From positions 1 to 64,000 of the forward strand of contig NZ_PVTI01000012.1 in assembly GCF_003002895.1 (NCBI RefSeq): DNA of 64,000 bases. Direction: 5' to 3'. The notes under the pieces were generated by a model, which was not told where the DNA came from, did not search any database, and saw only the letters and a program-made list of their open reading frames with translations. This DNA comes from Knoellia remsis (GTDB taxonomy: Bacteria > Actinomycetota > Actinomycetes > Actinomycetales > Dermatophilaceae). A program made the position numbers and the translations under genes. Within the stretch, counting starts at the first letter, position 1, and each line of letters begins with the position of its first letter. Shown one piece after another: positions 11,401-60,379 of the stretch.

Positions 11401-12414
11401 ACCCTCGTCGCGGATCTCGCCTCCGGCACCCGTCGCGGCGCCGGGGAACGGCGAGATCGCGGTCGGGTGGTTGTGCGTCTCGACCTTCATGAGGACGTGG
11501 ACGTCCTCCTCGCGGGCCTCGTATGCCGTGGGGCCGTCACCGCGTCCGGGTCGCCAGCGCTCGATGCGGTGTCCCTCGATGACGGACGCGTTGTCCTTGT
11601 AGGCGACGACGGTGCCGGCGCCCGCGACCTTCTCGGTGTGCCGGATCATCCCGAACAGGCTGGACGTCTGAGCCTCCCCGTCGACGATGAAGTCGGCGTT
11701 GAAGATCTTGTGCCGGCAGTGCTCGCTGTTGGCCTGCGCGAACATCATGAGCTCGACATCGGTGGGGTTGCGGCCGAGTCCGGTGAACGACTTCTCGAGG
11801 TAGTCGATCTCGTCGTCCGAGAGGGCCAGTCCGTATGCCGCGTTCGCGCCTTCCAGCGCGGCACGCCCACCGCCGAGGACGTCGACGTGCTCCATCGGCT
11901 CGGCGTCGCGCTCGTCGAAGAGGTGGGCAGCGTCCTCGCGGGACGGCAGCGCGGTCTCCGTCATCCGGTCGTGGAGGAGAGCCGCGATCGCGGCGCGGTC
12001 CGCGTCGGTGAGGGGCGCGTCGGCGTCGGCCAGGCCGTGGAGGGTGAACTCGGTGACCCGCTCGACGCGGTGGATGTCGATGCCGCAGTTGTGGACGATG
12101 TCGGTCGCCTTGCTCGCCCACGGGGAGATCGTGCCGAGGCGGGGTGCCACCACGAGCGTCTCCGCAGTGCTGGAAGCGGGCTCACCGGCATACGGGTCGC
12201 CGTAGGTGAGCAGCTGCGCGAGCTTCGCCGCGTCCTCGTCGATGAGCGGCTGCTCGCTTGCGACCCAGTGGACGTGGCGGGCGCTGACCCCGGTGATGCT
12301 CGGCGCCACCGCCTGCAGCCGGGCGAGGAGGGCGCGGGCGCGGAAGTCCGAGAGAGCCGAACCGCCCTCGAACACGGTCAGCACCAAGTCGTGCGAGGGA
12401 GCCGTTGAGGGCAT
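8500..12414 (-). CDS. purL: Phosphoribosylformylglycinamidine synthase, large single-chain type
   Basis: At 1304 residues this is the large form of PurL, which converts FGAR, ATP and glutamine to FGAM in purine synthesis. Order: PurS-like N-terminal domain; linker with [18 protein letters not shown] and [10 protein letters not shown]; two ATP-binding synthetase halves ([29 protein letters not shown]); C-terminal class I glutaminase with nucleophile Cys in [11 protein letters not shown] (about residue 1150), HGEG and PHPER. Most actinobacteria split the enzyme into PurS, PurQ and small PurL, so this form is unusual here. ATG 12414 was chosen over an upstream in-frame start because the MPSTAP start fits the N-terminal domain. 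purC lies upstream on the same strand. Confidence 0.95.
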
Positions 12415-12495
12415 GTGGGACTCTCTGGGCGCAGCTGGACGGACGCCGGACAGCCTAACGGTGGCCCGGGTCACGTCCACTGCCCTGGTCGGGCG

Positions 12496-12687
12496 TCAGT
12501 CCGCGTCCTGGACCGGGTTCTCCTCCGGGGTGGCGATCCCCGGGTTGTCGCCGCGGCGTCGCTGGAGCTCGGCTGATACGGCTCGTTCAACGAGGTCATC
12601 TCGTGACTCCGCACGACCAGCGGAAATCTCCTGGTCCATGAACTCGACGAGGTGATCTGCGATCGGAAGCGTGATCGTCGTCCTCAT
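12496..12687 (-). CDS. Orphan ribbon-helix-helix antitoxin-like protein
   Basis: The 63-residue product starts MRTTITLPIADHLVEFMDQE and continues SAGRAESRDDLVERAVSAEL, a beta-strand plus two helices typical of ParD/CopG ribbon-helix-helix DNA-binding antitoxins. Such genes usually overlap a downstream RelE/ParE-type toxin gene. Here the next gene, 81 nt downstream, is purL, and no toxin-like reading frame is present. It therefore looks like a solitary antitoxin or a small regulator caught between purC and purL. A role in controlling the purine genes is possible but untested. Confidence 0.65.
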   Translation of the reverse strand: MRTTITLPIADHLVEFMDQEISAGRAESRDDLVERAVSAELQRRRGDNPGIATPEENPVQDAD

Positions 12688-12740
12688 GCAAGCAGGCTAC
12701 GCCCGCGGTCGGACAGAGCACCGAGCCTTCCCCGTCCGGC

Positions 12741-13631
12741 TCAGAAGGTGCGTCCGGTGAGGCGCTCGTAGGCCTCGACGTACTTCGCCCGCGTCTGCTC
12801 GACGACCCGCTCGGGCAGCGGCGGCGGGGCCTCGCCCGACGCCTTGTCCCAACCCGACTCCGCCGACATGAGCCACTCGCGCACGAACTCCTTGTCGAAG
12901 CTCGGCTGCGGGTGCCCCGGCTCCCACTGGTCGGCCGGCCAGAACCGCGACGAGTCCGGCGTGAGCACCTCGTCGGCGAGGACGAGAGTCCCGTCGGCGT
13001 CGCGCCCGAACTCGACCTTGGTGTCCGCGATGAGGATGCCGCGCTCGGCCGCGATCTCGTTCCCGCGGGCGAGGATGCGCGTCGTGAGGTCGCGCAGATC
13101 GGCGGCGAGGCCCGCCCCGACGGCCTCCTCCACTGCCTCGAAGGACATCGGCTCGTCATGCTCCCCCTCCGGCGCCTTCGTCGAGGGCGTGAAGATCGGC
13201 CAGTCGAACCGGTCGCCGTCGACGAGCCCCTCGGGCAGCTCCAGCCCGCTCACGGTGCCGGACACGGCATACTCGCGCAGCCCGCCGCCGGTGAGGTAGG
13301 CACGCGCGACGCACTCCACGGGCACCATGTCGAGTCGCTTGACGAGCACGGCTCGACCGGCCACCACCTCGGGCACCTCGGTCGACAGCACGTGGTTCGG
13401 GACGATGTCCTCGAGCTGCTCGAACCACCACAGCGACAGCTGCGTCAGCACCGCACCCTTGTCCGGGATCGGCGGTTCGAGGGCGAAGTCGAACGCCGAG
13501 ATGCGGTCCGACGCGACGAGGAGCAGCTCGTCCTCACGCCCGTCGGGCACGTAGAGGTCGCGCACCTTGCCCGAGTAGAGGTGGGTGAAGCCGGGGATGG
13601 CCAGGGGCGCCTGGTCGGGCGTCGTCGTCAT
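12741..13631 (-). CDS. purC: SAICAR synthetase
   Basis: Phosphoribosylaminoimidazole-succinocarboxamide synthase joins CAIR and aspartate using ATP. The 296-residue protein shows YSGKVRDLY near residue 19, the LLLVASDRISAFD motif, then VKRLDMVPVECVARAYLTGGG, ILIADTKVEFG and LADEVLTPDSSRFWPADQ, which form the ATP, CAIR and metal sites. Length fits the longer single-domain form. It is on the same strand as purL with only the ribbon-helix-helix gene between, suggesting one purine transcription unit. The gap to soxR upstream is 26 bp. Confidence 0.95.
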   Translation of the reverse strand: MTTTPDQAPLAIPGFTHLYSGKVRDLYVPDGREDELLLVASDRISAFDFALEPPIPDKGAVLTQLSLWWFEQLEDIVPNHVLSTEVPEVVAGRAVLVKRLDMVPVECVARAYLTGGGLREYAVSGTVSGLELPEGLVDGDRFDWPIFTPSTKAPEGEHDEPMSFEAVEEAVGAGLAADLRDLTTRILARGNEIAAERGILIADTKVEFGRDADGTLVLADEVLTPDSSRFWPADQWEPGHPQPSFDKEFVREWLMSAESGWDKASGEAPPPLPERVVEQTRAKYVEAYERLTGRTF

Positions 13632-48282: not shown

Positions 48283-48837
48283 TCAGGCGAGGCCGAGCTC
48301 CTCGAGGCCGAAGACGTAGCGGTACTCGAGGCCGGCGTCGGCGAAGACCTGCGCGGCGCCGGTGGAACGGTCGGCGATCGTCGCGACGGCGACGACCGTC
48401 GCACCGGCCTCCTGCGCGGCCTTCGCGGCCTCGAGTGGGGAGGCGCCGGTCGTGGAGGTGTCCTCGACGACGAGGACGCGGCGGCCCTCGATCGACGGGC
48501 CCTCGATGCGCTGCTGGAGTCCGTGCGCCTTGCCGGCCTTGCGGACGACGAACGCGTCGAGCCGCTCGCCGTCGGCCGCGGCGGCGTGCAGCATCGACGT
48601 CGCGACCGGGTCGGCACCGAGCGTGAGACCGCCGACGGCGTCGAAGTCGAGATCCTGGGCGAGGTCGCGCATGACGCGCCCGACGAGCGGGCTGGCCTCG
48701 CCGTCGAGGGTGATGCGGCGCAGGTCGACGTAGTAGTCGGCCTCCTTGCCGGAGGAGAGGGTGACGCGGCCGTGGACGATGGCCTTGTCCTTGACGATCT
48801 CGAGCAGGCGGGCGCGGTCGGCGGCGATGTCAGTCAC
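48283..48837 (-). CDS. pyrE: Orotate phosphoribosyltransferase
   Basis: The 184-residue enzyme matches the standard actinobacterial Pyr[56 protein letters not shown] (residues 97-114), and the PRPP loop [13 protein letters not shown] at 121-133. It makes OMP from orotate and PRPP. A second, more divergent copy is at 546-1076. The 241-bp gap on its far side (48042-48282) contains no gene that I can support. It is divergent from a cupin gene with 40 bp between the starts. Confidence 0.93.
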
Positions 48838-48877
48838 GCCCGTGAATCTACCGACCCCTCCGACCTACGCTGGACGC

Positions 48878-49243
48878 ATGCCCGTCGTCGACATCGCTGA
48901 CAAGCTCGCGCTGTTCTCCGACCACTGGTCGCCGAAGGTGGTGGCCCGGCTCAACGACTACGAGATCAAGCTCGTCAAGCTCAAGGGCGAGTTCGTGTGG
49001 CACACCCACGAGGACACCGACGAGCTCTTCCTCGTCATCGATGGGCGGCTCACGATCCAGCTCCGCGACGGCGACGTCACGCTCGGACCGGGTCAGCTCT
49101 TCGTCGTCCCGAGGGGTGTGGAGCACTGCCCCATCGCCGACGGCGACGTCAGTGCGATGCTCATCGAGCCGGCAGGAGTGGTGAACACCGGCGACGCAGG
49201 TGGCGAGCTCACCGCGGCCAGGGACACCTCACTGCTCGACTGA
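48878..49243 (+). CDS. Single-domain cupin protein
   Basis: A 121-residue cupin: [20 protein letters not shown] contains the metal-binding His-x-His and Glu of cupin motif 1, and [20 protein letters not shown] supplies the motif 2 His. The family includes small mannose-isomerase-like and dioxygenase-like proteins; the activity here is unknown. The stop overlaps that of eda on the other strand by 15 bp. Confidence 0.85.
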
Positions 49244-49906
49244 CGCCGGTGACGCGAGGGCCGACCCGAGGGTCGTGGTCGCGTGCTGCGCTCGTCGGGT
49301 GATCCCGGCCCAGTCGCCGGTCCGGACCAGCTCGGCCGGCGTGAGCCACGACCCGCCGACACACGGCACCCGCTCGATCTCCAGGTATGCCGCGGCGCGG
49401 GCAGCCGTGATGCCTCCCGTCGGGCAGACGCGCACCTCGCGCAACGGGGCGAGCACCGAACGCACGAACGCGGGTCCGCCGAGGGGCTCGGCCGGGAAGA
49501 CCTTGACCTCGTCGAAGCCGGCGTCCCGTAGCGCCATGACCTCGGAGACGGTCGCTGCGCCCGGCAGCGCCGGGACGGGCAGGTCCGTGAGTGCCTGCCG
49601 CAGGGCGGCGGTCGTGCCGGGGGTGACGACGAACTGCGCACCGGCCTCCACCGCCGCCTCGAGCTGGCCCACGTCGAGGACGGTGCCGGCGCCGACGAGG
49701 ACGTCGGGCACGAGCTCGCGCACCGCCGTCACCGCCGCGAGCGCGCCCTCACTGCGCAGAGTGATCTCGATGACCGGGATCCCTCCCGCGAGAAGGGCTG
49801 TGGCGACCTCGCGGCCTGCCTGTGCAGGCTCGACGTCCTCCGGGAGCTGCACCACGGGGATGACCGGGGCCCGGTCGAGCGGGGACCCCCCGCCGGGCGC
49901 GGTCAC
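49229..49906 (-). CDS. eda: KDPG aldolase
   Basis: The 225-residue protein is 2-dehydro-3-deoxy-6-phosphogluconate aldolase, which splits KDPG to pyruvate and glyceraldehyde-3-phosphate. Signatures: [68 protein letters not shown] with the Schiff-base Lys, and [18 protein letters not shown]. It is the last gene of the minus-strand half of the uronate locus; its GTG overlaps the iclR stop (GTGA). Confidence 0.92.
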
Positions 49907-50688
49907 CCGGCGTCCTCGGCCGCGCGGCCGGGGGGCAGGGCACTGTCCGGACCACCGATGGCCGTCGAGATCGCGGCCGCGGTACGAGCGACCATGGAGC
50001 CGAGCTCCTCGACCTCGGCCCCGGTGACGTCGAAGGCGAGGGACGAGACCGAGACACCGCCGATCGGCTCCCCGCGGTGGTTGACGACAGCCGCTCCGAC
50101 GCAGCGGGTGTGTGGCTCGTTCTCCTCGTCGTCGACAGCGAAGGACCGGGTGCGCACCTTCGCGAGGTGACGCAACAGGACCGTGGCGTCGGTCATCGTG
50201 CGCGGGGTCAGCGGGGGCAGGCCGGCCCGGCGGGCGACCTGACGGACCTCGGCGTCGGGCAGCTGGGCGAGGACCGCCTTGCCGATGGCGGTGCAGTGCA
50301 ACGGCAGGGTCATACCGATCCGCGAGCGCATGGCGTAGGCACGGGTTCCCTCGAGCTTGTCGACGTAGACGAGCTGGTCGCCGTCGAGCATCGCGAAGTG
50401 CACCGTGCGGCCGCTCTCCTCGCAGAGCCGACGCAGTTGCGGCCGCGCGAGGCGGGCGAGGTCCTCCGACCCGGTGGTCCGCGACGGCAGCGACAGCAGC
50501 CGTGCCCCGAGCACGTAGGTCCGACCCTCCTCCTCTCGCGCCCAGCCCGCGGTGACGAGCTCCTGCAGGATGCGGTGCACCGTCGAGACGGGCAGCCCGG
50601 TGTGACGGGCGATGTCGCTGAGCCGGCGCTCGTGGGCGAGCGCCTCGGTGACGGCGATCGCCTTCTGCAGAGCGGTCATTCGCGTCAT
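49903..50688 (-). CDS. IclR-family regulator of the uronate locus
   Basis: A 261-residue regulator. N-terminal HTH: MTALQKAIAVTEALAHERRL, SDIARHTGLPVSTVHRILQE, GWAREEEGRTYVLGARLLSL. C-terminal GAF-like effector domain: MLDGDQLVYVDKLEGTRAYA, LPLHCTAIGKAVLAQLPDAE and EEVGSMV-type end. IclR members such as KdgR sense KDG, the intermediate of this pathway, so it is likely the repressor of the divergent operons. It overlaps kduD upstream (ATGA) and eda downstream (GTGA). Candidate operators lie at 52363-52419. Confidence 0.88.
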   Translation of the reverse strand: MTRMTALQKAIAVTEALAHERRLSDIARHTGLPVSTVHRILQELVTAGWAREEEGRTYVLGARLLSLPSRTTGSEDLARLARPQLRRLCEESGRTVHFAMLDGDQLVYVDKLEGTRAYAMRSRIGMTLPLHCTAIGKAVLAQLPDAEVRQVARRAGLPPLTPRTMTDATVLLRHLAKVRTRSFAVDDEENEPHTRCVGAAVVNHRGEPIGGVSVSSLAFDVTGAEVEELGSMVARTAAAISTAIGGPDSALPPGRAAEDAG

Positions 50689-51464
50689 CGAGCCATCCAT
50701 CCGCCGTCGACGGTGAGCACGTGCCCGTTGACGTATGCCGCGCCGGGGCTCGCGAGGTAGACCACCGCTGGCGCGATGTCCTCGGGCTTGGCCCACCGCC
50801 CGGCGGGGATGCGTCCCGAGATCGCCTCGAAGCGTTCCTCGTCCGCCCGCAGCGCCTCGGTGTTGTTGGTCTCGACGTAGCCCGGCGCCACCGCGTTGAC
50901 CCGGACCCCCGAGGCGGCCCATTCGTTCGCGAGGGCCTTGGTGAGACCGGCGACGGCGTGCTTGGTCGCGGCATACCCGGGAACGGTGACCCCACCCTGG
51001 AAGGAGAGGAGCGAGGCGATGGTGACCACCGCACCGTCACCGCGCTCGACCATGCGCGCGCCGAGGACCTGGCTGAGGAGCCAGACGGAGTCGAGGTTCA
51101 CGGCCCGCACGAGGTCCCAGTCCTCCATGGACATCTCGGCCGCGGGGCTGCGGCGGATGGTTCCGCCGTTGTTGACGAGGACGTCGATCCGGTGCTCGTC
51201 GGCGACTTGCGTCGCGAGCTCACGCACCGCGTCGCGATCGGCGAGATCGGCGGCGACGCCAAAAGCCTTGCGCCCCAACGCTTCCACCTCAGCGGCCACC
51301 TCGTCCACGTCGCCGGCCTCGCGCCCCCAGAGGACGACGTCCGCGCCTGCCGCGGCGAGCGCGACGGCGCAGGCCCGACCGATGCCGGTGCGCGCCCCGG
51401 TGACCAGGGCGGTGCGGCCGGCGAGTCCGAACTGCGCCTCGAGCCAGGCGGGGTCGGTCGTCAT
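50685..51464 (-). CDS. kduD: 2-dehydro-3-deoxy-D-gluconate 5-dehydrogenase (KduD)
   Basis: A 259-residue short-chain dehydrogenase. Cofactor motif TALVTGARTGIGRA (residues about 19-32), VNNGGTIRR, catalytic Ser in IASLLSFQGG and Tyr-x3-Lys in VPGYAATKHAVAGL, then RVNAVAPGYVETNNTEALR and GRWAKPEDIA typical of KduD. It reduces DKII to KDG. Its ATG overlaps the kduI stop (ATGA). The NGGTIRRSPAAEM and SFQGG details distinguish it from general SDRs such as the one at 60403-61170. Confidence 0.9.
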   Translation of the reverse strand: MTTDPAWLEAQFGLAGRTALVTGARTGIGRACAVALAAAGADVVLWGREAGDVDEVAAEVEALGRKAFGVAADLADRDAVRELATQVADEHRIDVLVNNGGTIRRSPAAEMSMEDWDLVRAVNLDSVWLLSQVLGARMVERGDGAVVTIASLLSFQGGVTVPGYAATKHAVAGLTKALANEWAASGVRVNAVAPGYVETNNTEALRADEERFEAISGRIPAGRWAKPEDIAPAVVYLASPGAAYVNGHVLTVDGGWMAR

Positions 51465-52288
51465 CGCAGGTCCGTCGTCGCGACCGCGTCCATGTCGTCG
51501 TAGGCGAGGTTCTCGCCGGCGGTCGACCAGACGAACTTGTAGGAGGCGGTGCCGGCACCGAAGTGGACCGACCACGGCGGCGAGATGATGGCCTGGCGGT
51601 CGGCCACGATCATGCTCTTGGTCCGGCCCGGCTGTCCGGCGATGTGGACGACCCGCTCGCCTTCGGGGAGGTCGAAGTAGAGGTAGCACTCGGTGCGTCG
51701 GTCGTGGGTGTGGCACGGCATGGTGTTCCAGACGTTGCCGGGCTCGATCGTCGTGATGCCGAGGGCGAGCTCACACGAGGCGACGCCCTGGTCGTGGACG
51801 TACTTGCGCAGGGTGCGCCGGCTCGCCTTCTCCTCCTCGCCGATCTCGACGGCCTGCGCGTCGGCCTTGCGGATCAGGGTGGTGGGGTGGGCGAGGTGCG
51901 CGGGTGCGCTCACGAGGTAGAACGCGGCGTCCCCGGACAGCGTGACCCGACCACTGCCCTGGCCGACATAGACGATGTCCTCGGCGTCCACGGCATACGA
52001 CTCGCCGCCGTCGACGGCGACGGTCCCCGACCCGGAGAGGCAGACGACCCCGAGCTCCCGCCTGTCCGTCAGGGTCCCCTTGGCGCGGATCTCCGGTGGG
52101 GCCTCGAGGTCGAGCGACCCTCCCGCGGGCAGCGCGCCGCCGAGCAGGATCCGGTCGCTCTGGCTGAGCATCCAGCGCACCTCGCCCTCGGCGAAGAGCT
52201 CCTCGACGAGGAACCGCTCGCGCAGCTGGTCGGGGGTGAGCGCGGCGAACTCGTGGGGGTGCGTGGCGATGCGGACGTCGGTGGACAT
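51461..52288 (-). CDS. kduI: 5-dehydro-4-deoxy-D-glucuronate isomerase (KduI)
   Basis: The 275-residue cupin-fold isomerase converts DKI, the spontaneous product of unsaturated uronates, to DKII. Key elements: VEELFAEGEVRWMLSQSDRI, LLGGALPAGGSLDLEAP, NTMPCHTHDRRTECYLYFDL near residue 195 with the zinc-binding His and Glu, and SPPWSVHFGAGTASYKFVW. Length is typical. It is the first gene of the minus-strand operon, starting 180 bp from the binding-protein gene on the other strand. Confidence 0.93.
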   Translation of the reverse strand: MSTDVRIATHPHEFAALTPDQLRERFLVEELFAEGEVRWMLSQSDRILLGGALPAGGSLDLEAPPEIRAKGTLTDRRELGVVCLSGSGTVAVDGGESYAVDAEDIVYVGQGSGRVTLSGDAAFYLVSAPAHLAHPTTLIRKADAQAVEIGEEEKASRRTLRKYVHDQGVASCELALGITTIEPGNVWNTMPCHTHDRRTECYLYFDLPEGERVVHIAGQPGRTKSMIVADRQAIISPPWSVHFGAGTASYKFVWSTAGENLAYDDMDAVATTDLR

Positions 52289-52362
52289 GCGGCGCGGCTC
52301 CTCGGTGTCGGTGGCTCGTGCGACGGGCGGACGTCTAGCGCTGAGGCGCCTTCCCGTCCAGC

Positions 52363-52419
52363 GGAAATGACTTCCCTTGCGGCTGAAACGCTGACCACTA
52401 TGCCTCAACGGCACCGTTG
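52363..52419. promoter_or_regulatory. Candidate operators in the divergent kduI / binding-protein promoter region
   Basis: The 180-bp gap 52289-52468 has two palindromes: CAACGG-ca-CCGTTG (52406-52419, perfect) and GGAAATGACTTCC (52363-52375, imperfect). Either could be the site of the IclR-family regulator that must control both arms. Assignment is by position only. Confidence 0.4.
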
Positions 52420-52468: not shown

Positions 52469-53773
52469 ATGCGTTCCACCCTCATCAGCGGCCTGGCCGC
52501 CGTGAGCCTCGCGACGACCCTCGCCGCCTGCGCCCCCGGCACGAGCGAGTCGGGCTCCGGCGCCGACGCGCCCGCGCCCTCCGGCTCGGTCGACCTCAGC
52601 TCCTTCAAGGGCAAGAAGATCACCTACCTCTACTTCACCGACGGACCGGACGAGGCCGCCACCCGCTCCCTGCTCAAGGAGTTCGAGAGCAAGACCGGCG
52701 GCACGGTCGACCTCCAGATCGTGCCGTTCGCCGACCTCCAGCAGTCGCTGCAGGCGCGGCTCTCCGGAGGGAACGCCCCGGACGTCGCGCGCCTCGCGGA
52801 CCTCGCGCCGTTCAAGGACGAGCTCATGGACCTCTCCGGCGTCGTCGGCGCGGACTACGCCGACCAGTTCCTCGCCGGCCCGGCGACGGCGATGAAGGAC
52901 GGCGACAAGATCATCGCCGTCCCCAACGACCTCACGATGAACGGGCCGTTCGTCAACACCGACCTCTTCGAGAAGGCCGGGGTCCCGGTGCCGACGAAGT
53001 GGACCTGGGACGAGATGGTGGCCGCGGCCAAGAAGGTGCAGGCCGCGAACAAGACGGAGGCGGGCATCGCCATCGACAAGTCAGGCCACCGGCTCTCGAC
53101 GATCCTCAGCCAGTTCGGCACGACGATGGTCGGCAAGGACCTCACGAACACCCTCGACGAGGCCAAGGCCACCAAGGCGATCGACAGTCTCGTCACGCTC
53201 ATCGAGGACGGCACCATCCCCAAGGACTTCTGGATCGAGTCCGGCAGCAAGTACAAGGGCGCCAACGAGATCTTCCTCGCCCAGCAGGCGCCGATCTACA
53301 TCTCCGGCAACTGGCAAGTGGCACAGTTCGCGGATGCGGCGAAGTTCGGCTGGAAGGCCGTCCCGAACGCCTGCGCGGAGCGCTGCGGTGGCTTCCCCGG
53401 CGGCAAGTACACCGTCGCCCTGAGCCAGTCCAAGGAACCCGAGATGGCTGCGGCCCTGGTCCAGTTCCTCAACTCCAAGGAGTCCCAGGCCACGATGGAC
53501 GCCGCGTCGATGTGGCTGCCCACCCGTAACGACCTCATCGAGGGCAAGGGCGTGACCTACCCCGACCGGCAGGCCGACATGGAGGTCTTCACCGCCGACG
53601 TGGGAGAGACCCCGGAGGACACCTACGACGCGGTCGCCTCGCCCGCGTTCGGCGCCTCGGCGACGGTCCTCGTCGAGGAGTTCGCCAAGGCCGTCGCGGG
53701 ACAGCAGGACGCGGCGACGACGGCGAAGAACCTCAAGGCCGGCATCGACCAGGCCATCGCCGACAGCAAGTGA
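52469..53773 (+). CDS. ABC sugar transporter solute-binding lipoprotein
   Basis: The 434-residue protein is a family 1 binding protein with a lipoprotein signal (MRSTLISGLAAVSLATTLAA then Cys21 in the LAAC lipobox) and a Ser/Gly/Pro linker. Core: ITYLYFTDGPDEAATRSLLK, LQARLSGGNAPDVARLADLA, NKTEAGIAIDKSGH, ISGNWQVAQFADAAKFGWKA and FLNSKESQATMDAASMWLPT. It presumably binds oligosaccharides from pectin, glycosaminoglycan or similar polymers, given the uronate genes around it. RBS CAGGAG. Coupled to the permeases. Confidence 0.9.
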   Translation: MRSTLISGLAAVSLATTLAACAPGTSESGSGADAPAPSGSVDLSSFKGKKITYLYFTDGPDEAATRSLLKEFESKTGGTVDLQIVPFADLQQSLQARLSGGNAPDVARLADLAPFKDELMDLSGVVGADYADQFLAGPATAMKDGDKIIAVPNDLTMNGPFVNTDLFEKAGVPVPTKWTWDEMVAAAKKVQAANKTEAGIAIDKSGHRLSTILSQFGTTMVGKDLTNTLDEAKATKAIDSLVTLIEDGTIPKDFWIESGSKYKGANEIFLAQQAPIYISGNWQVAQFADAAKFGWKAVPNACAERCGGFPGGKYTVALSQSKEPEMAAALVQFLNSKESQATMDAASMWLPTRNDLIEGKGVTYPDRQADMEVFTADVGETPEDTYDAVASPAFGASATVLVEEFAKAVAGQQDAATTAKNLKAGIDQAIADSK

Positions 53774-54717
53774 GCACCACGACCGCGGTCGCGGGCGCCC
53801 CCGAGACGGGGCGCCCGCCCACCGGACCGCCGCCCCGAGCCACTGCCGCCCGGTCCCGCAACCGTTGGGCCCCATGGCTGTTCGTCGCGCCGAACATGCT
53901 GGTCTTCCTCGTGTTCACGATCTGGCCGGCGATCAACGGCTTCAACATCTCGTTCTACGACAGCCGCAACGGTCGCACCTTCACCCCCGTGGGCACGGGC
54001 AACTACACCCGGATCCTCGGCGACGACGAGTTCTGGGGGGTCGTCCGGCACACCGTCGTCTTCGTCGTCGCCTTCGTCGTCGTGACGATGGTCCTGGCCA
54101 CGGCGCTCGCCCTCCTGCTCAACGCACAGCAGCGCGGCCGTGGCGTCCTGCGAGCGGCCTACTTCCTGCCCGTCCTCCTCTCCCCCGTCGTCGTCGGCCT
54201 CATCTGGGGTTGGGCGCTCGAGCGCCGGGTGGGGCTCGTCAACACCATCACGGAGGCGATCGGCCTGGGGCAGCCCGGCTGGCTCATCGACCCGACGCTG
54301 GCGATGACCTGCACCGTCCTCGTCGGCGTGTGGACCCACCTCGGCTTCTACGCGCTCATCCTGCTGTCCGGCCTCCAGGGCATCGACGGCAACGTCTACG
54401 AGGCGGCCCGCCTCGACGGCTCGAGCACGTGGCAGACGATCCGGCTCATCACCCTGCCCCTGCTGCGACCCACGATGCTCGTCGTGCTCATCCTCTCGAC
54501 GATCACCGGGTTCCAGGCCTTCGACTTCATCTACACCCTCACCGGTGGTGGGCCCACCGGCTCGACGACGCTCATCGTCCAGTACATCTACGAGCAGGCC
54601 TTCGAGTCGCCGATCCGCTACGGCCTCGCGAGCGCGGCCGGGGTCATCCTCTTCGTGACGATCTTCGGCATCACGCTGCTCAACTACCTGCTCGGACGAC
54701 GCCAGGAGGCCGTGTGA
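53770..54717 (+). CDS. ABC sugar permease (MalF/UgpA type)
   Basis: A 315-residue permease with six helices: WAPWLFVAPNMLVFLVFTIW at the start, then FFVVAFVVVTMV-like helices, EAARLDGSSTWQTIRLITLP (the EAA loop that docks the ATPase) near residue 213 and LTGGGPTGSTTLIVQYIYEQ. The first 30 residues are polar and disordered. The GTG start overlaps the stop of the binding-protein gene. It pairs with the following MalG-type permease. No ATPase gene is present, so a shared MsiK-type ATPase must serve. Confidence 0.92.
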   Translation: MSTTTAVAGAPETGRPPTGPPPRATAARSRNRWAPWLFVAPNMLVFLVFTIWPAINGFNISFYDSRNGRTFTPVGTGNYTRILGDDEFWGVVRHTVVFVVAFVVVTMVLATALALLLNAQQRGRGVLRAAYFLPVLLSPVVVGLIWGWALERRVGLVNTITEAIGLGQPGWLIDPTLAMTCTVLVGVWTHLGFYALILLSGLQGIDGNVYEAARLDGSSTWQTIRLITLPLLRPTMLVVLILSTITGFQAFDFIYTLTGGGPTGSTTLIVQYIYEQAFESPIRYGLASAAGVILFVTIFGITLLNYLLGRRQEAV

Positions 54718-55592
54718 CCACCGCGACCCCGACCGCACCCTCGACCGCGTCCCCGGATAACTCGGGGGTCCGCACGCCGCCGAGCACCGGCAGCATCATC
54801 CGCGCCACACTCCTCGTGGCCGGCGCGATCGTCATGCTCATCCCCGTCGTGTGGGCCGTGCTCTCGTCCTTCAAGGACACCTCCGAGCTGGCCCAGCGGC
54901 CGCCGACGATCCTGCCGCAGGACCCGACGTTCTCGAACTACACCGAGGCGCTCACGAGCTTCAGCTTCCTCACGTACTTCAAGAACAGCGTCGTCGTCAC
55001 GGTCGCCGCCACGGCCCTGACGCTGCTCATCAACTCGATGGCGGCGTTCGCCCTGGCGAAGTACAACTTCCGGGGCCGCAACGCGCTCTTCCTGCTGACG
55101 CTCGCGACGATCATGATCCCGCTGCAGGTCATCCTCATCCCCGTCTACCAGGTCGTCGCGAACCTCGGGCTCGTCAACTCGCTGTGGGGCCTCATCATCC
55201 CGCCGGCCGCGACCCCGACGGGCGTGTTCCTCCTGCGCCAGTACATGCTGACCATCCCCGACGACCTCATCGAGGCCGCCCGGATCGACGGCGCCTCGGA
55301 GTGGCGGATCTTCTGGCGGATCATCATGCCGCTGTGTCGCCCCGCCCTCGCCGTGGTCGCGATCTTCTCGATCATCTGGCGCTGGAACGACTTCCTCTGG
55401 CCGCTCATCGTCGCCCAGGACGAGAGCGTCTACACGCTGCCCGTGGCCCTGGCCCGCTTCAACGGGCAGCAGGTCGTGCCGTTCAACCTCGTGCTCGCGA
55501 TGTCCGTGCTGACGATCCTGCCCGTCGTCATCATCTTCCTCGTGCTGCAGCGCCACATCCTCACCGGCATCGCCCAGACGGGGCTGAAGTGA
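54714..55592 (+). CDS. ABC sugar permease (MalG/UgpE type)
   Basis: A 292-residue permease with six helices: ATLLVAGAIVMLIPVVWAVL, TYFKNSVVVTVAATALTLLI, LFLLTLATIMIPLQVILIPV, then the EAA loop DDLIEAARIDGASEWRIFWR and RWNDFLWPLIVAQDESVYTL. It completes the membrane part of the importer. GTG start overlapping the previous stop (GTGA); its own stop overlaps the GTG of the 920-aa gene. Confidence 0.92.
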   Translation: MTTATPTAPSTASPDNSGVRTPPSTGSIIRATLLVAGAIVMLIPVVWAVLSSFKDTSELAQRPPTILPQDPTFSNYTEALTSFSFLTYFKNSVVVTVAATALTLLINSMAAFALAKYNFRGRNALFLLTLATIMIPLQVILIPVYQVVANLGLVNSLWGLIIPPAATPTGVFLLRQYMLTIPDDLIEAARIDGASEWRIFWRIIMPLCRPALAVVAIFSIIWRWNDFLWPLIVAQDESVYTLPVALARFNGQQVVPFNLVLAMSVLTILPVVIIFLVLQRHILTGIAQTGLK

Positions 55593-58351
55593 CAGGAGAC
55601 CGCACCACCGTGAGCGGCAACCGCACCGTCCACCGACTCGGCCGCGACGGCGCGGTCCTCGACTGGCTCGTCGGGCCGGTGTGGGAGGCGCCCTGCCTCG
55701 ACCTCGGATCCGTCGTGCCCGCGGACGGCTCACCCTGGGACGATGGTGGCCGGCTGGGCCGGTGGCGGCTCACTAACGGTCCCGATGTCGCACCGGTCAA
55801 GGACGCCCTGTATGCCGTTGTCGGGCCTTCGCTGCCGGTCGCACCGTGGTCGCCGCCCGAGTTCTCGGAGGATGGCGACTTCCGTTGGCCCACACCGTTC
55901 CCCGCGTCATCGTCACCCGCGGGCGGGCCCGAGCGCGAGCTGCAGGGAACCTGGGAACGGCACCGGACGGCATACGACGGTGTCGTGGAGCGGTCGACGT
56001 TCTGCTACACGCCGACGTACCGCGCGTTCGTCGCGGCGACGCGGCTCGAGGTGGACCAGCCGGAGGTGCGCCGCCTCGTGGTCCGCAGCACCGGTCCGCT
56101 GCGGGTGTGGCTGCGCGGGGAGCTGGTGCTGGAACACCCGGAGTTCGGCTACATGCAACCGTGGACGCAGGTCGTCGAGACCCTGCTGCCCTCGGGGACG
56201 AGCGATCTCGTCGTGGCCTCGTGGAACGTCGCCCTGCGCGAGGTGCGCCAGACCGTGTCGGTCCACGTCGAGGGCCTGCCGGTGCGCGTCGTCATCCCGT
56301 CGGCGGGCGCCGACGAGTCACGGGACGCCGTCGCCGAAGGACTCCTCGACGCGGTGACGGTGCGCCAGTGGGAGGCGACCGACGGGTCGGCGACGCTGCA
56401 CGGTCCGCCGGGGCTGCGCGTCCGGGTCCACGCCGGCCGCCACGAGGTCGGGGCACACACCTTCGACGACGCCGGTGTCGCCACGGTCCCGCTCGTCGCC
56501 GGCGACGCCGACAGCGAGCAGGCCTCGATGCTCGGCACCGGCGAGATCAGCCTCACCGTCCGCGTCGACGACCCGGCGTGCCGCTCACGCCGCGACCTGC
56601 TCGTCGGTCACCTCCCCTGGCGGCAGCGCCACTCGCCCGAGGCCGGTCCGGACACGTGGCGGACCGAGCTGCTCACGCACGCAGCCGGCCGCGGCGGGTC
56701 GGCGCGGGCACTCGCCGAGCACGCCCTCGACCCATCGGCCAGCGGGGTCGTGGTCACCGCCGACGCCCTCGCCCCGGCCCTGGGGTTCATCACGAGCCGC
56801 TCCGACTGTGCCGACTTCGAGGCGGTCGGGCTCATGCTGCTGTGGCACCGGGTCCCCGCGGAGCGCTGGGCACCGGGGACGCGCGACTCCGTGCGCGAGG
56901 CCCTGCTCGACTTCAAGTACTGGATCGACCAGCCCGGCACCGACGCCATGTGCTACTTCACCGAGAACCACCAGATGGTGTGGCACACCGCGGAAACCCT
57001 TGTGGGAGAGACGTTCTCGCGCGACAAGTTCACCAACACCGGATGGACCGGGGCCGAGCACGCCGACCACGGACGTGACCTCGCCAAGGCCTGGGTCGAC
57101 CGCAAGCTGACGTCCGGCTTCAGCGAGTTCGATTCCAACGCCTACCTGGCGATCGACGCGCTCGCCCTCGTCGCCCTCGTCGACCACGCCGCGGACGGCG
57201 ACCTGCGACGACGGGCCGAGGCGCTGCTCGACAAGATCCTGCTCACGCTCGCGTCGAACTCGTGGCGCGGCACGCACGGGTCGGCCCACGGACGCAGCTA
57301 CACCCCGACCCTCAGGGCGTCCTGTCTCGAGGAGACGGCCGGCATCATGTGGGCCCTCTGGGGCATGGGCGCCCTCAACGAGGCCACGCTGCCGGCCACC
57401 GCGCTGGCGACCAGCACGGCATACGCGCTCCCCGAGGTGATCCGCGCGATCGCCTCCGAGCCGGACGCCGACTGGACCGGCACGCAGTCCTACCGCGGTG
57501 AGTACGCAATGGAACGTGACCTGCTCACGCGCGGCTACTCGTCGCGCGTCGTCGTCCGGCGCGGGCGCGGCGGCATGGTCTCGTCGGTGCAGGACTATCG
57601 CGTCGGCCTGCCGGGCCTCCAGGAACACGTCTGGGGCGTCACCCTGCCGGGCGCGGTGCAGGTGTGGGCGACGAATCCCGCTGCGGTGAACCACGGTTCG
57701 CACACTCGCCCCAGCGGATGGGTCGGCCACCGTGTCCTGCCGCGAGTCCGTCAGCACGACCGCACCGTCATCGCCCTGCACCGCGGCGACACCCTCGCCG
57801 AACACGTGCACCTGTGGTTCCCCGCCGCTCGTCTCGACGAGTGGCGCGTCGACGGCGACTGGCTCGTCGGTCGCAAGGGCGAGGGCTTCGTGGCGGTCGC
57901 GACCCCCGGCGGGTTCGAGCCCGTGCGCGCGGGTGACGAGGCCTGGCAGAGCTGGCTTCCGCGGCAGGCGCCCCTGCTCGTCGCGGTGCACGCCGACGAC
58001 GCGATGGTGGACGGGCTCGACGCGTTCGTCGCCGGGCTCCCCGAGCTGGAGTGGCGGCCCGGCGACACCGCGGTCCGGGTCGGGCCGAGCGCGTCGAGCG
58101 CTGACGCCCCGGTCGAGCTCGCCTGGGACGGACCGTTCCTCGTGAACGACCGGCCCGTGGATGTCGCGGACGGCGTCCCCGTGACGCCACCGCACCTCGA
58201 CAACCGCGCGACCCGGGTGGCGGCGGCCGACGACCTCGTCTCGGTGACGTGGGGCGGACACCTGCTCGAGATCGACCCCGTGGCGGGCCGACGACGAACG
58301 CCCGCGAGCGGCATACGCGACGAAGGGGTGGACGGCACCGATGGCGGCTGA
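55589..58351 (+). CDS. Unrecognised 920-aa cytoplasmic enzyme of the uronate locus
   Basis: I do not recognise this family. There is no signal peptide. The first 350 residues look beta-rich (VRRLVVRSTGPLRVWLRGEL, LEHPEFGYMQPWTQVVETLL), like sugar-binding or jelly-roll domains. Residues about 370-650 look like an alpha-helical toroid: CYFTENHQMVWHTAETLVGE (ENHQ 459-462), GFSEFDSNAYLAIDALALVA (SNAY 516-519), HGRSY 567-571 and EETAGIMWALWGMGALNEAT. The rest is again beta-rich (PGLQEHVWGVTLPGAVQVWA). This alpha-toroid plus beta-sandwich order is that of many polysaccharide lyases. It is translationally coupled to the MalG-type permease and overlaps the GH105-type gene by 11 bp, so it probably cleaves the imported oligosaccharide. 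GTG at 55610 is an alternative start. Confidence 0.7.
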   Translation: MTGDRTTVSGNRTVHRLGRDGAVLDWLVGPVWEAPCLDLGSVVPADGSPWDDGGRLGRWRLTNGPDVAPVKDALYAVVGPSLPVAPWSPPEFSEDGDFRWPTPFPASSSPAGGPERELQGTWERHRTAYDGVVERSTFCYTPTYRAFVAATRLEVDQPEVRRLVVRSTGPLRVWLRGELVLEHPEFGYMQPWTQVVETLLPSGTSDLVVASWNVALREVRQTVSVHVEGLPVRVVIPSAGADESRDAVAEGLLDAVTVRQWEATDGSATLHGPPGLRVRVHAGRHEVGAHTFDDAGVATVPLVAGDADSEQASMLGTGEISLTVRVDDPACRSRRDLLVGHLPWRQRHSPEAGPDTWRTELLTHAAGRGGSARALAEHALDPSASGVVVTADALAPALGFITSRSDCADFEAVGLMLLWHRVPAERWAPGTRDSVREALLDFKYWIDQPGTDAMCYFTENHQMVWHTAETLVGETFSRDKFTNTGWTGAEHADHGRDLAKAWVDRKLTSGFSEFDSNAYLAIDALALVALVDHAADGDLRRRAEALLDKILLTLASNSWRGTHGSAHGRSYTPTLRASCLEETAGIMWALWGMGALNEATLPATALATSTAYALPEVIRAIASEPDADWTGTQSYRGEYAMERDLLTRGYSSRVVVRRGRGGMVSSVQDYRVGLPGLQEHVWGVTLPGAVQVWATNPAAVNHGSHTRPSGWVGHRVLPRVRQHDRTVIALHRGDTLAEHVHLWFPAARLDEWRVDGDWLVGRKGEGFVAVATPGGFEPVRAGDEAWQSWLPRQAPLLVAVHADDAMVDGLDAFVAGLPELEWRPGDTAVRVGPSASSADAPVELAWDGPFLVNDRPVDVADGVPVTPPHLDNRATRVAAADDLVSVTWGGHLLEIDPVAGRRRTPASGIRDEGVDGTDGG

Positions 58352-59444
58352 GGACACCGACAACGCGCGGCTCTCCGTGCCGCCGCGAGCGCCGTGGACG
58401 GTCGCGGCGACGACTCCCGAGGCGCTGCACCGCGTGGCGGACGAGACCGCGCTCGCGACGTGGCGCCTCGGCCTGCGGCGGTGGTTCTGGGGCGAGGGCG
58501 TGTGCCTCCTCGGACTCGTGCGCTCGGCGCGCGCGTGGGGCGAGCCGGTGCCCGCGGCCGTCGTCGACTGGTACGACGCCCGCCTCGCCGACCCGGCAGC
58601 CGACCCGACCGCCCTCCTCGACCACGTCAACGAGGTCGCGCCGGGGGCGGCGGCGAGCCTGCTCGTCGCGGACGCCGACCGCGCGGCCTACCTCCCCGCC
58701 CTCGACCGGCTCCGGAGCTGGACGCTGCGACCCGAGGTGACCCGCGACCCGAACGGCGCCATCGAGCACTGGCCGGGCGGGGTCTGGGCCGACACGATGG
58801 TCATGGTGGGGGTCTTCCTCATGCGTCTCGGGGAGCTCCGCCGTGACCGGGAGCTGGTCGCCGAGGGCGTCGACCAGGTCCTCGCCCACGCCGCCCTCCT
58901 CCAGGACGCGACGGGTCTCTTCGTGCACGGCACGCACCGCGGTGAGGCGATCCCGTGCCACTGGGGTCGGGCCAACGCCTGGGCCGCCCTCGCGCTCGTC
59001 GAGGCGCTCGAGGTGGACGCCGGCCTCGTCGACGCCGGCGCTCGCGAGGAGGTGACGCAGCGGCTCGAGGCGCAGCTCGTCGCCCTCACGAGGACCCAGC
59101 CCGCGCACGGGATCTGGGACGTGCTCGTCGACGGCCACCCCGAGACGGCCGGCATCGCCGAGTCGTCCGCGGCGGCCGGGGTCGCGGCGGCGATGCTCCG
59201 CGCGGGGCCGCCACTGGGGACGGACCGCTTCACGGAGCCGGGGTGGCGCGCCCTGCGTGGCGTGCTCGGTCAGGTCGACGACGGGGTTCTCACCCGGGTC
59301 AGCGCGGGCACGGTCCTGCAGCTGATCCCCTTCGGCTACAGCGTGATTCGCGACGATCGGGCACAACCGTGGGGCCAGGGCCTGCTGCTCCAGGCCCTGG
59401 CCGCTGCCGGTGACGCGATCCGTCGTGGAGAGCCGGCGCGATGA
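58341..59444 (+). CDS. Unsaturated glycuronyl hydrolase (GH105/GH88-like)
   Basis: The 367-residue protein has the (alpha/alpha)6-barrel signatures of GH105 hydrolases: GAIEHWPGGVWADTMVMVGVF (Asp in WADTM), IPCHWGRANAWAALALVEAL, GIWDVLVDGHPETAGIAESSAAAG and AQPWGQGLLLQAL. These enzymes hydrate the double bond of unsaturated glucuronyl or galacturonyl ends, releasing DKI, the substrate of KduI. No signal peptide, so it works in the cytoplasm on imported oligomers. It overlaps the 920-aa gene (11 bp) and kdgK (ATGA). Confidence 0.85.
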   Translation: MAAEDTDNARLSVPPRAPWTVAATTPEALHRVADETALATWRLGLRRWFWGEGVCLLGLVRSARAWGEPVPAAVVDWYDARLADPAADPTALLDHVNEVAPGAAASLLVADADRAAYLPALDRLRSWTLRPEVTRDPNGAIEHWPGGVWADTMVMVGVFLMRLGELRRDRELVAEGVDQVLAHAALLQDATGLFVHGTHRGEAIPCHWGRANAWAALALVEALEVDAGLVDAGAREEVTQRLEAQLVALTRTQPAHGIWDVLVDGHPETAGIAESSAAAGVAAAMLRAGPPLGTDRFTEPGWRALRGVLGQVDDGVLTRVSAGTVLQLIPFGYSVIRDDRAQPWGQGLLLQALAAAGDAIRRGEPAR

Positions 59445-60379
59445 CCGCGCCTCGCGTCCTGTGCTGCGGCGAACCCCTCGTCGTGCTCTCGACCCACCCG
59501 GGTGACGACCTCGAGACGGCGGCCGAGCTGCACGTCGGCGTGGCCGGGGCCGAGCTCAACGTGGCGCTGCACCTGGCCCGGCTCGGGATGGACGTGCGCT
59601 TCGCGGGTGCGGTGGGGGACGACCCGTTCGGGGACCGCGTCCGGGCCGCCCTCGTGCGCGAGGGGGTCGACGACAGCGGCCTGCACGAGGTGCCGGGCCA
59701 CCCCACCGGCGTCTACTTCAAGCAGCGGGTCGGTGGCGCCGGCAACGGCAGCGCCGTCCACTACTACCGGGCGGGCTCCGCCGCCACGAGCAGCTGGCCG
59801 CTCACCGACGACGACCTCCACGGCGTCGGCCACGTCCACGTGAGCGGCGTGTCCGCGGCGGTGTCGCCGTCGTTCCTCGCCCGGCTCGAGCAGTTGACCG
59901 CTCCCGAGCGCTCGTGGACCGTGTCCTTCGACCTCAACCATCGTCCCGCGCTCTGGCCCGCGGACGACGCGGGGCGGGTGCTCCGAGCCCTCGCCCGACG
60001 GTGCGACATCGTCCTCGTCGGGCTCGACGAGGCGGCCGAGGTGTGGGGGGCCCAGACCCGCGAGGAGGTCCGCGAGCACCTGCCGGAGGTGCCCGAGATC
60101 GTCGTCAAGGACGGTCCCGACCCGGCGTCGGTCTGGGCCGACGGTGCCTGGACCACGAGCGAACCGGTGCCCGTCGTCGTCGTCGAGCTCGTGGGGGCGG
60201 GCGACGCGTTCGCGGCGGCCTACCTCGCATCGAGACTGTCCGGTCACGGTCCCGGGGCGGCCATGCAGTCCGGGCACGTGCTCGCGGCGCACGTCATCGC
60301 GGAGACCGGCGACCAGGGCTCGCCCGATGCCGAGGCCTACACCCAGATCCGCGAGACCCTGCCCGGCCGCACCACCTGA
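59441..60379 (+). CDS. kdgK: 2-dehydro-3-deoxygluconokinase
   Basis: The 312-residue PfkB-family kinase phosphorylates KDG to KDPG for Eda. Signatures: VLCCGEPLVVLS, GVAGAELNVALHLARLGMDV, FAGAVGDDPFGDRVRAALV, FDLNHRPALWP, VLVGLDEAAEVWG and the anion-hole motif VELVGAGDAFAAAYLASRL. With GH105, KduI, KduD and Eda it completes the route from unsaturated uronides to pyruvate and triose phosphate. Last gene of the plus-strand operon. Confidence 0.9.
   Translation: MTAPRVLCCGEPLVVLSTHPGDDLETAAELHVGVAGAELNVALHLARLGMDVRFAGAVGDDPFGDRVRAALVREGVDDSGLHEVPGHPTGVYFKQRVGGAGNGSAVHYYRAGSAATSSWPLTDDDLHGVGHVHVSGVSAAVSPSFLARLEQLTAPERSWTVSFDLNHRPALWPADDAGRVLRALARRCDIVLVGLDEAAEVWGAQTREEVREHLPEVPEIVVKDGPDPASVWADGAWTTSEPVPVVVVELVGAGDAFAAAYLASRLSGHGPGAAMQSGHVLAAHVIAETGDQGSPDAEAYTQIRETLPGRTT

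Follow-up and report, generated by a model that had tools for sequence, protein, structure and literature searches.

A predicted cytosolic uronyl beta-eliminase encoded between a sugar importer and a GH105-type hydrolase in Knoellia remsis

Enzymes of the glycoside hydrolase (GH) families GH88 and GH105 require an unsaturated uronyl end. A gene for such an enzyme lies in a stretch of 64,000 nucleotides from Knoellia remsis (contig NZ_PVTI01000012.1, positions 1 to 64,000, here called the window), and the gene directly upstream of it codes for a protein of 920 amino acids (aa) without a named family. The question raised by this locus is how the unsaturated end is made, and whether the 920-aa protein makes it. 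Because the synteny is conserved in unrelated bacterial groups and the residues named below are invariant, the protein is probably a uronyl beta-eliminase of the cytosol, providing GH105 with the delta-4,5 end.

55589..58351, + strand: the family gene, for the predicted cytosolic uronyl beta-eliminase (lyase or dehydratase), 920 aa, from open reading frame (ORF) calling

The gene and its conserved order

The frame at 55589-58351 (+) is open and translates to 920 aa, just where the original prediction had placed it. Its GTG start overlaps the TGA stop (55590-55592) of the upstream permease gene, and a second GTG at 55610, with AGGAG 11 bases upstream, offers an alternative of 913 aa; the true start may be either of the two. 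Comparison with the orthologue from the same genus (79% identity) gave a dN/dS of 0.23, and the differences at the three codon positions (115/122/340) were dominated by third-position changes, which shows the family gene to be genuine and subject to purifying selection. The protein sequence has no apparent signal peptide.

The strongest functional evidence is the gene order, in which the nearest neighbours are:

53770..54717, + strand: permease 1 of an ATP-binding cassette (ABC) sugar importer (PF00528)
54714..55592, + strand: permease 2 of the ABC sugar importer (PF00528)
58341..59444, + strand: GH88/GH105 unsaturated uronyl hydrolase (PF07470, E 2.7e-34; in PDB, GH105 3qwt at 9e-26 and YteR at 2e-7)
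59441..60379, + strand: PfkB-type 2-keto-3-deoxygluconate (KDG) kinase, by Pfam/NCBIfam profile searches

The GH88/GH105 identity of the downstream gene is given both by PF07470 and by solved GH105 structures, and no other gene of the genome matches PF07470. A GH88/105 gene is present in the locus of all 16 long forms of the family examined, adjacent or one gene away in 15 of them. The order permease-permease-family gene-GH105 is kept in six of six actinobacterial loci, with the KDG kinase gene next in five; kduI is divergent, or downstream in locus L022, as is kduD wherever the sequence reaches far enough. Gemmobacter, Pannonibacter and Shinella share the order GH88, kduI, family gene, ABC importer (kduD in two of the three), and in Pseudosulfitobacter (L053) the family gene stands beside kduI in a locus with a tripartite ATP-independent periplasmic (TRAP) transporter, kduD and a GH88 gene about 6 kb off. 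The family gene is followed by GH88 and GH28 genes in Rhizobium, by GH88 and a major facilitator superfamily (MFS) transporter in Catenovulum (L049), and by a GH105 homologue in Photobacterium and Sinorhizobium sojae. GH105 genes of the close type (over 50% identity) occur only in the two of 248 genomes of the order that carry the family gene; in other genomes of the order, a gene for a PL11-type rhamnogalacturonan lyase was seen next to GH105 genes. The locus of Rhizobium binae (L051:1-1251 and 11575-12939) also holds an alpha-L-fucosidase gene with GH28, which suggests that the substrate of this branch is pectin fragments.

Invariant residues, named eliminases and the predicted fold

In an alignment of 24 members from bacteria and archaea, D406, D409, F410, E459, N460, H461, E513, S516, Y519, G568, R569, Y571, Q678, W711 and H741 are invariant in all 24. 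The original prediction had singled out ENHQ (459-462), SNAY (516-519) and HGRSY (567-571) as conserved; these motifs sit at the residues claimed, and the conservation holds for E459, N460, H461, S516, Y519, G568, R569 and Y571 but not for Q462, N517, A518, H567 and S570, which vary among the relatives. The distance from N to Y is 59 residues (57 in two members), from N to R 107-109, and from R to Y 2.

56963..56971, + strand: E459-N460-H461, invariant, a candidate carboxylate-neutralising pair (compare PL17 Asn201/His202)
57125..57145, + strand: E513-x-x-S516-x-x-Y519, invariant, with Y519 as candidate acid/base (compare PL33 Y291 and PL17 Y258)
57290..57301, + strand: G568-R569-x-Y571, invariant, a putative counterpart of BcGDH R285/Y289

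H680, considered as a counterpart of the base His of lyases, was rejected since it is not conserved, being Thr in four alphaproteobacterial members.

The polysaccharide lyase (PL) families PL12, 15, 17, 21, 33 and 39 share a fold and most of the catalytic apparatus (PMC11848413), with N201, H202 and Y258 in PL17 (PMC4765187), N238, Y291 and H444 in PL33 (PMC11848413), and N192, Y246 and H401 in PL35 (PMC12088678). In the glucuronate dehydratase BcGDH, the residues put forward by its authors are Y229, R285 and Y289, and N176 and N177 lie close to them (PMC12269599). The order and spacing of the invariant residues resemble those of toroid uronate beta-eliminases (PL12/15/17/33/35, PL8) and of the newly described GH154 glucuronate dehydratases, a resemblance read from sequence that is not proof of homology. 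BcGDH and GH154 share with the 920-aa protein a predicted toroid, the order Asn, Tyr, Arg, Tyr with an N-to-R distance of 109, a GH88/105 partner and, on a low-confidence model, the best structural match; they differ in carrying NNW (N176 N177 W178) instead of ENH, so that W178 is without a counterpart, in GRSLTY instead of GR-x-Y, in the extra N-terminal domain found here, and in the absence of sequence or profile similarity. In the PL12-type heparinases II/III found here, N-H is likewise followed, about 54 residues on, by S-x-x-Y, whereas the 920-aa protein has no PF16889 match. PL17 (Alg17c) has the adjacent Asn-His, a Tyr that follows 57 residues later (59 here) and, like the model of the 920-aa protein, a toroid with a beta domain, but the base His/Tyr of its beta domain is without an identified counterpart here, and PL17 acts alone whereas the family gene stands beside GH105. 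The glycosaminoglycan (GAG) lyases of PL35/PL33 resemble the protein in its predicted toroid plus beta domain, in Asn and Tyr, and in being among the structural matches; they lack a sequence match to it, and their studied members are GAG or gellan depolymerases. The ulvan oligosaccharide dehydratase P29_PDnc likewise generates the unsaturated end for a GH105, but with a catalytic set of Asp, Arg and Lys, and no sequence relation is suggested.

Profile searches agree with the earlier failure to place the protein in a named family. It matched nothing in Pfam at E 1 or in NCBIfam, and nothing meaningful in PDB either by single sequence or by two family profiles, with no profile match there to PL33/PL35. 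PF10022 (GH154), whose proteins do match BcGDH and 8oi4, was not matched at E 1 and has no gene in the genome; PF16889/PF07940 (PL12-like heparinase II/III) and PF05426 (PL5/PL15/PL17 alginate lyases) gave no match to the protein, and PF16889, PF05426, PF10022 and PL22 none in the genome. HHalign against heparinase-type lyases paired the NH and SxxY motifs in one run, which was not statistically significant. In the comparison of predicted structures, no solved lyase rose clearly over the background, and the 920-aa protein probably represents a new family within a mechanistic class already known; membership was shown for none of the families tested here, and families beyond these may still include it.

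AlphaFold models of the full length and of the core, built from three sequences, were both weak, with mean pLDDT (predicted local distance difference test) of 44.7 and 47.7. The model shows beta structure at 122-301, about a dozen helices within 354-623 and beta structure at 629-896, and so the beta-toroid-beta layout proposed earlier is reproduced, though by a low-confidence model only.

55949..56302, + strand: predicted N-terminal domain, residues 121-238, beta-sandwich like CBM35/PA14/galactose-binding folds (VIA-align Z about 8-10 over ~100 residues, weak model)
56621..57463, + strand: predicted alpha/alpha toroid domain, residues about 345-625 (predicted helices; VIA-align)
57473..58276, + strand: predicted C-terminal beta domain, residues 629-896 (modelled secondary structure), carrying invariant Q678, W711 and H741

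The top VIA-align rows of the core were BcGDH (Z 9.8 over 240 residues, 4.4 Å), GH154 8oi4 (9.0) and PL17 Alg17c (8.4), followed at Z 7-8 by PL17, by GH88 and PL35 (these two at 7.7-7.9) and by unrelated helical proteins; weak rows with the PL33/PL35 entries 8khv, 8khw, 9o3q and 8r6z also came from the low-confidence model.

Water or sugar as the leaving group, and points against elimination

In the proposed mechanism, an acidic oligosaccharide would enter through the adjacent importer, and the 920-aa protein would abstract the C5 proton of a uronic acid residue while its carboxylate is neutralised by N460, H461 and R569. The group on O4 would then be eliminated, with Y519 as putative acid/base and Y571 or Y519 protonating O4, to leave a delta-4,5-unsaturated uronyl end on which GH105 could act. 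The original prediction of a toroid-type lyase feeding GH105 is strongly supported by synteny and invariance as far as a cytosolic eliminase goes; the lyase, however, is only one of two live options, and a non-reducing-end uronate dehydratase, with its precedents in BcGDH/GH154 and P29_PDnc, was overlooked and fits at least as well.

A slight lean to water as the leaving group was adopted because many loci hold just two glycan enzymes, the family protein and GH88/105, and because TRAP and MFS importers of small molecules occur. Such a dehydratase, which we favour tentatively and at something short of an even chance, would act on GlcA or GalA at the terminus and remove water (4-OH, 5-H), and GH105 would take the place of a glucuronidase; a uronyl disaccharide as substrate would need exactly GH105 and nothing more, and the family protein and GH88/105 are the only glycan enzymes of the smallest loci. 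BcGDH and GH154 provide the best structural rows, R285-Y289 of BcGDH may correspond to R569-Y571 at the same N-to-R distance, GH154 genes co-localise with GH88/105, and P29_PDnc is a second, unrelated precedent. This is offset by the missing profile link to PF10022, by ENH in place of the GH154 NNW motif and by the low confidence of the structural model. An exo- or oligo-lyase is only slightly less likely; in this reading X-(1->4)-uronate-Y would be cut in the cell, X released, and the delta-uronyl-Y then split by GH105. The N-H pair and Tyr as in PL17, the Tyr as in PL12/15/21/33/39 and a C-terminal beta domain like those of the lyases all suit it, as do the CUT1-type ABC permeases in most loci and, for pectin fragments, the rhizobial GH28 with alpha-L-fucosidase in one locus. 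Cleavage of a disaccharide by a lyase would, however, make GH105 needless, so that the substrate would be at least a trisaccharide, which fits poorly with the TRAP (L053) and MFS (L049) importers, and the invariant R569 and Y571 are closer to BcGDH.

Several results weigh against an eliminase role. HHalign against GH154 scored 16.4 with a shuffle mean of 15.1, and 34 of 120 column shuffles were as good; against heparinase-type lyases, trimmed alignments scored 14.66 with a column-shuffle mean of 14.64, and homology to these was not counted since the score equalled the shuffles. Foldseek on the core model gave nothing at E 0.001, and the margin of that model over unrelated rows is small, Z 8-10 being near the background for helical proteins. 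No GH105 link was detected for the short paralogues, so that the reaction may vary across the family and theirs may differ from that of the long forms. The same genome carries, standing alone at another site, a gene for a secreted PL8 lyase (L098:8244-10343, contig C24, minus strand; 699 aa or more) with a twin-Arg-like signal N-terminus, whose nearest matches are lyases for chondroitin AC, xanthan and hyaluronate; the disaccharides it could form outside the cell could enter through the window importer and give GH105 unsaturated disaccharides without the 920-aa protein.

The PL8 gene lends itself to a reading in which the 920-aa protein is no eliminase at all and instead prepares imported sugars, perhaps as a glycoside hydrolase or C5-epimerase, with PL8 supplying the unsaturated disaccharides. 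Unsaturated disaccharides made by lyases are known to be imported (PMC12838403), the epimerase DS-epi1 has the same fold, and the invariant acids D406, D409, E459 and E513 leave room for a hydrolase. We regard this as unlikely, since the invariant set holds the Asn/His/Tyr/Arg combination of eliminases and the GH88/105 link is kept in unrelated bacteria; the hydrolase named as an option in the original prediction found no support and is disfavoured. By analogy with BcGDH in Bacteroides caccae, a dehydratase alongside PL8 could handle saturated ends.

The uronate pathway, the family and its meaning

The predicted eliminase lies within the uronate pathway that had been read around it, and the permeases, GH88/105, KDG kinase and the following genes were all found. 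Directly beyond eda, a small cupin protein is encoded at 48746-49243.

51461..52414, - strand: KduI, 5-keto-4-deoxyuronate isomerase (NF002091 over cut-off; PF04962; true start probably further in)
50748..51470, - strand: KduD-type dehydrogenase of the short-chain dehydrogenase/reductase (SDR) type (NF005390 best, but below its cut-off)
49903..50691, - strand: IclR/KdgR-type regulator (PF01614)
49229..49906, - strand: Eda, 2-keto-3-deoxy-6-phosphogluconate (KDPG) aldolase (TIGR01182 over cut-off)

The protein had been taken for a lone unknown, and it does lack a named-family match, but it is no orphan: its family is widespread in bacteria and haloarchaea. Full-length orthologues (48-79% identity) are present in the sister species, Nocardioides gansuensis, another Nocardioidaceae bin and two further Actinomycetota. 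Distant members (21-24% identity) were found on 199 plasmid records, mostly of Rhizobium and Sinorhizobium and also of Pseudosulfitobacter, Pannonibacter, Shinella, Gemmobacter, Catenovulum and Photobacterium, and short forms (24-32% identity) in Actinomycetota and Haladaptatus. The relatives thus span Actinomycetota, rhizobia, Rhodobacterales, Alteromonadales, Vibrionales and haloarchaea, and are labelled hypothetical protein wherever the records carry annotation. No relatives were found in the viral contigs scanned, and no prior description of the family in the open literature (subscription journals lay outside the scope). The weak matches L033-L035 were dropped, as they looked like chance similarity to unrelated proteins. 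A core tree is consistent with grouping of the GH105-linked long forms, at a support of only 0.68.

Some copies appear to be decaying: a 179-aa ORF (L026:10258-10797) that matches residues 744-908 only looks like a remnant, and the member in genome G583 (L029:8000-10200), interrupted by in-frame stops, is apparently broken. The short paralogues lack the N-terminal domain (121-238) in the alignment, and because the short Actinomycetota members L028, L030, L031 and L032 begin with lipoprotein- or Tat-like signals (Tat, twin-arginine translocation), the family appears to comprise secreted as well as cytosolic branches. Among the neighbours of short members, LytR-CpsA-Psr near L027 and Gfo/Idh/MocA near L030 outline no clear pathway. 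Around the short member on a Haladaptatus plasmid (L048:1-25677) are clustered genes for heparinase II/III, an aminotransferase, acetyltransferases and many Gfo/Idh/MocA oxidoreductases, a set that seems more suited to building surface polysaccharide than to uptake.

It is conceivable, though we regard it as less than an even prospect, that these proteins constitute a widespread family of intracellular uronyl-oligosaccharide dehydratases which, with GH105, replaces glucuronidases or galacturonidases when acidic disaccharides are taken up by actinobacteria, rhizobia and marine bacteria. If this is true, the family would add one more way of making the unsaturated end to those provided by lyases, GH154 and P29_PDnc. 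In genomes with kdu genes and GH105 but without an obvious cytoplasmic lyase, the source of that end is unexplained, and the gap would be closed by one family that accompanies these genes in hosts ranging from Nocardioidaceae to Rhizobium plasmids. Many genes for hypothetical proteins could then be annotated, and the prevalence of the dehydratase route would become directly testable.

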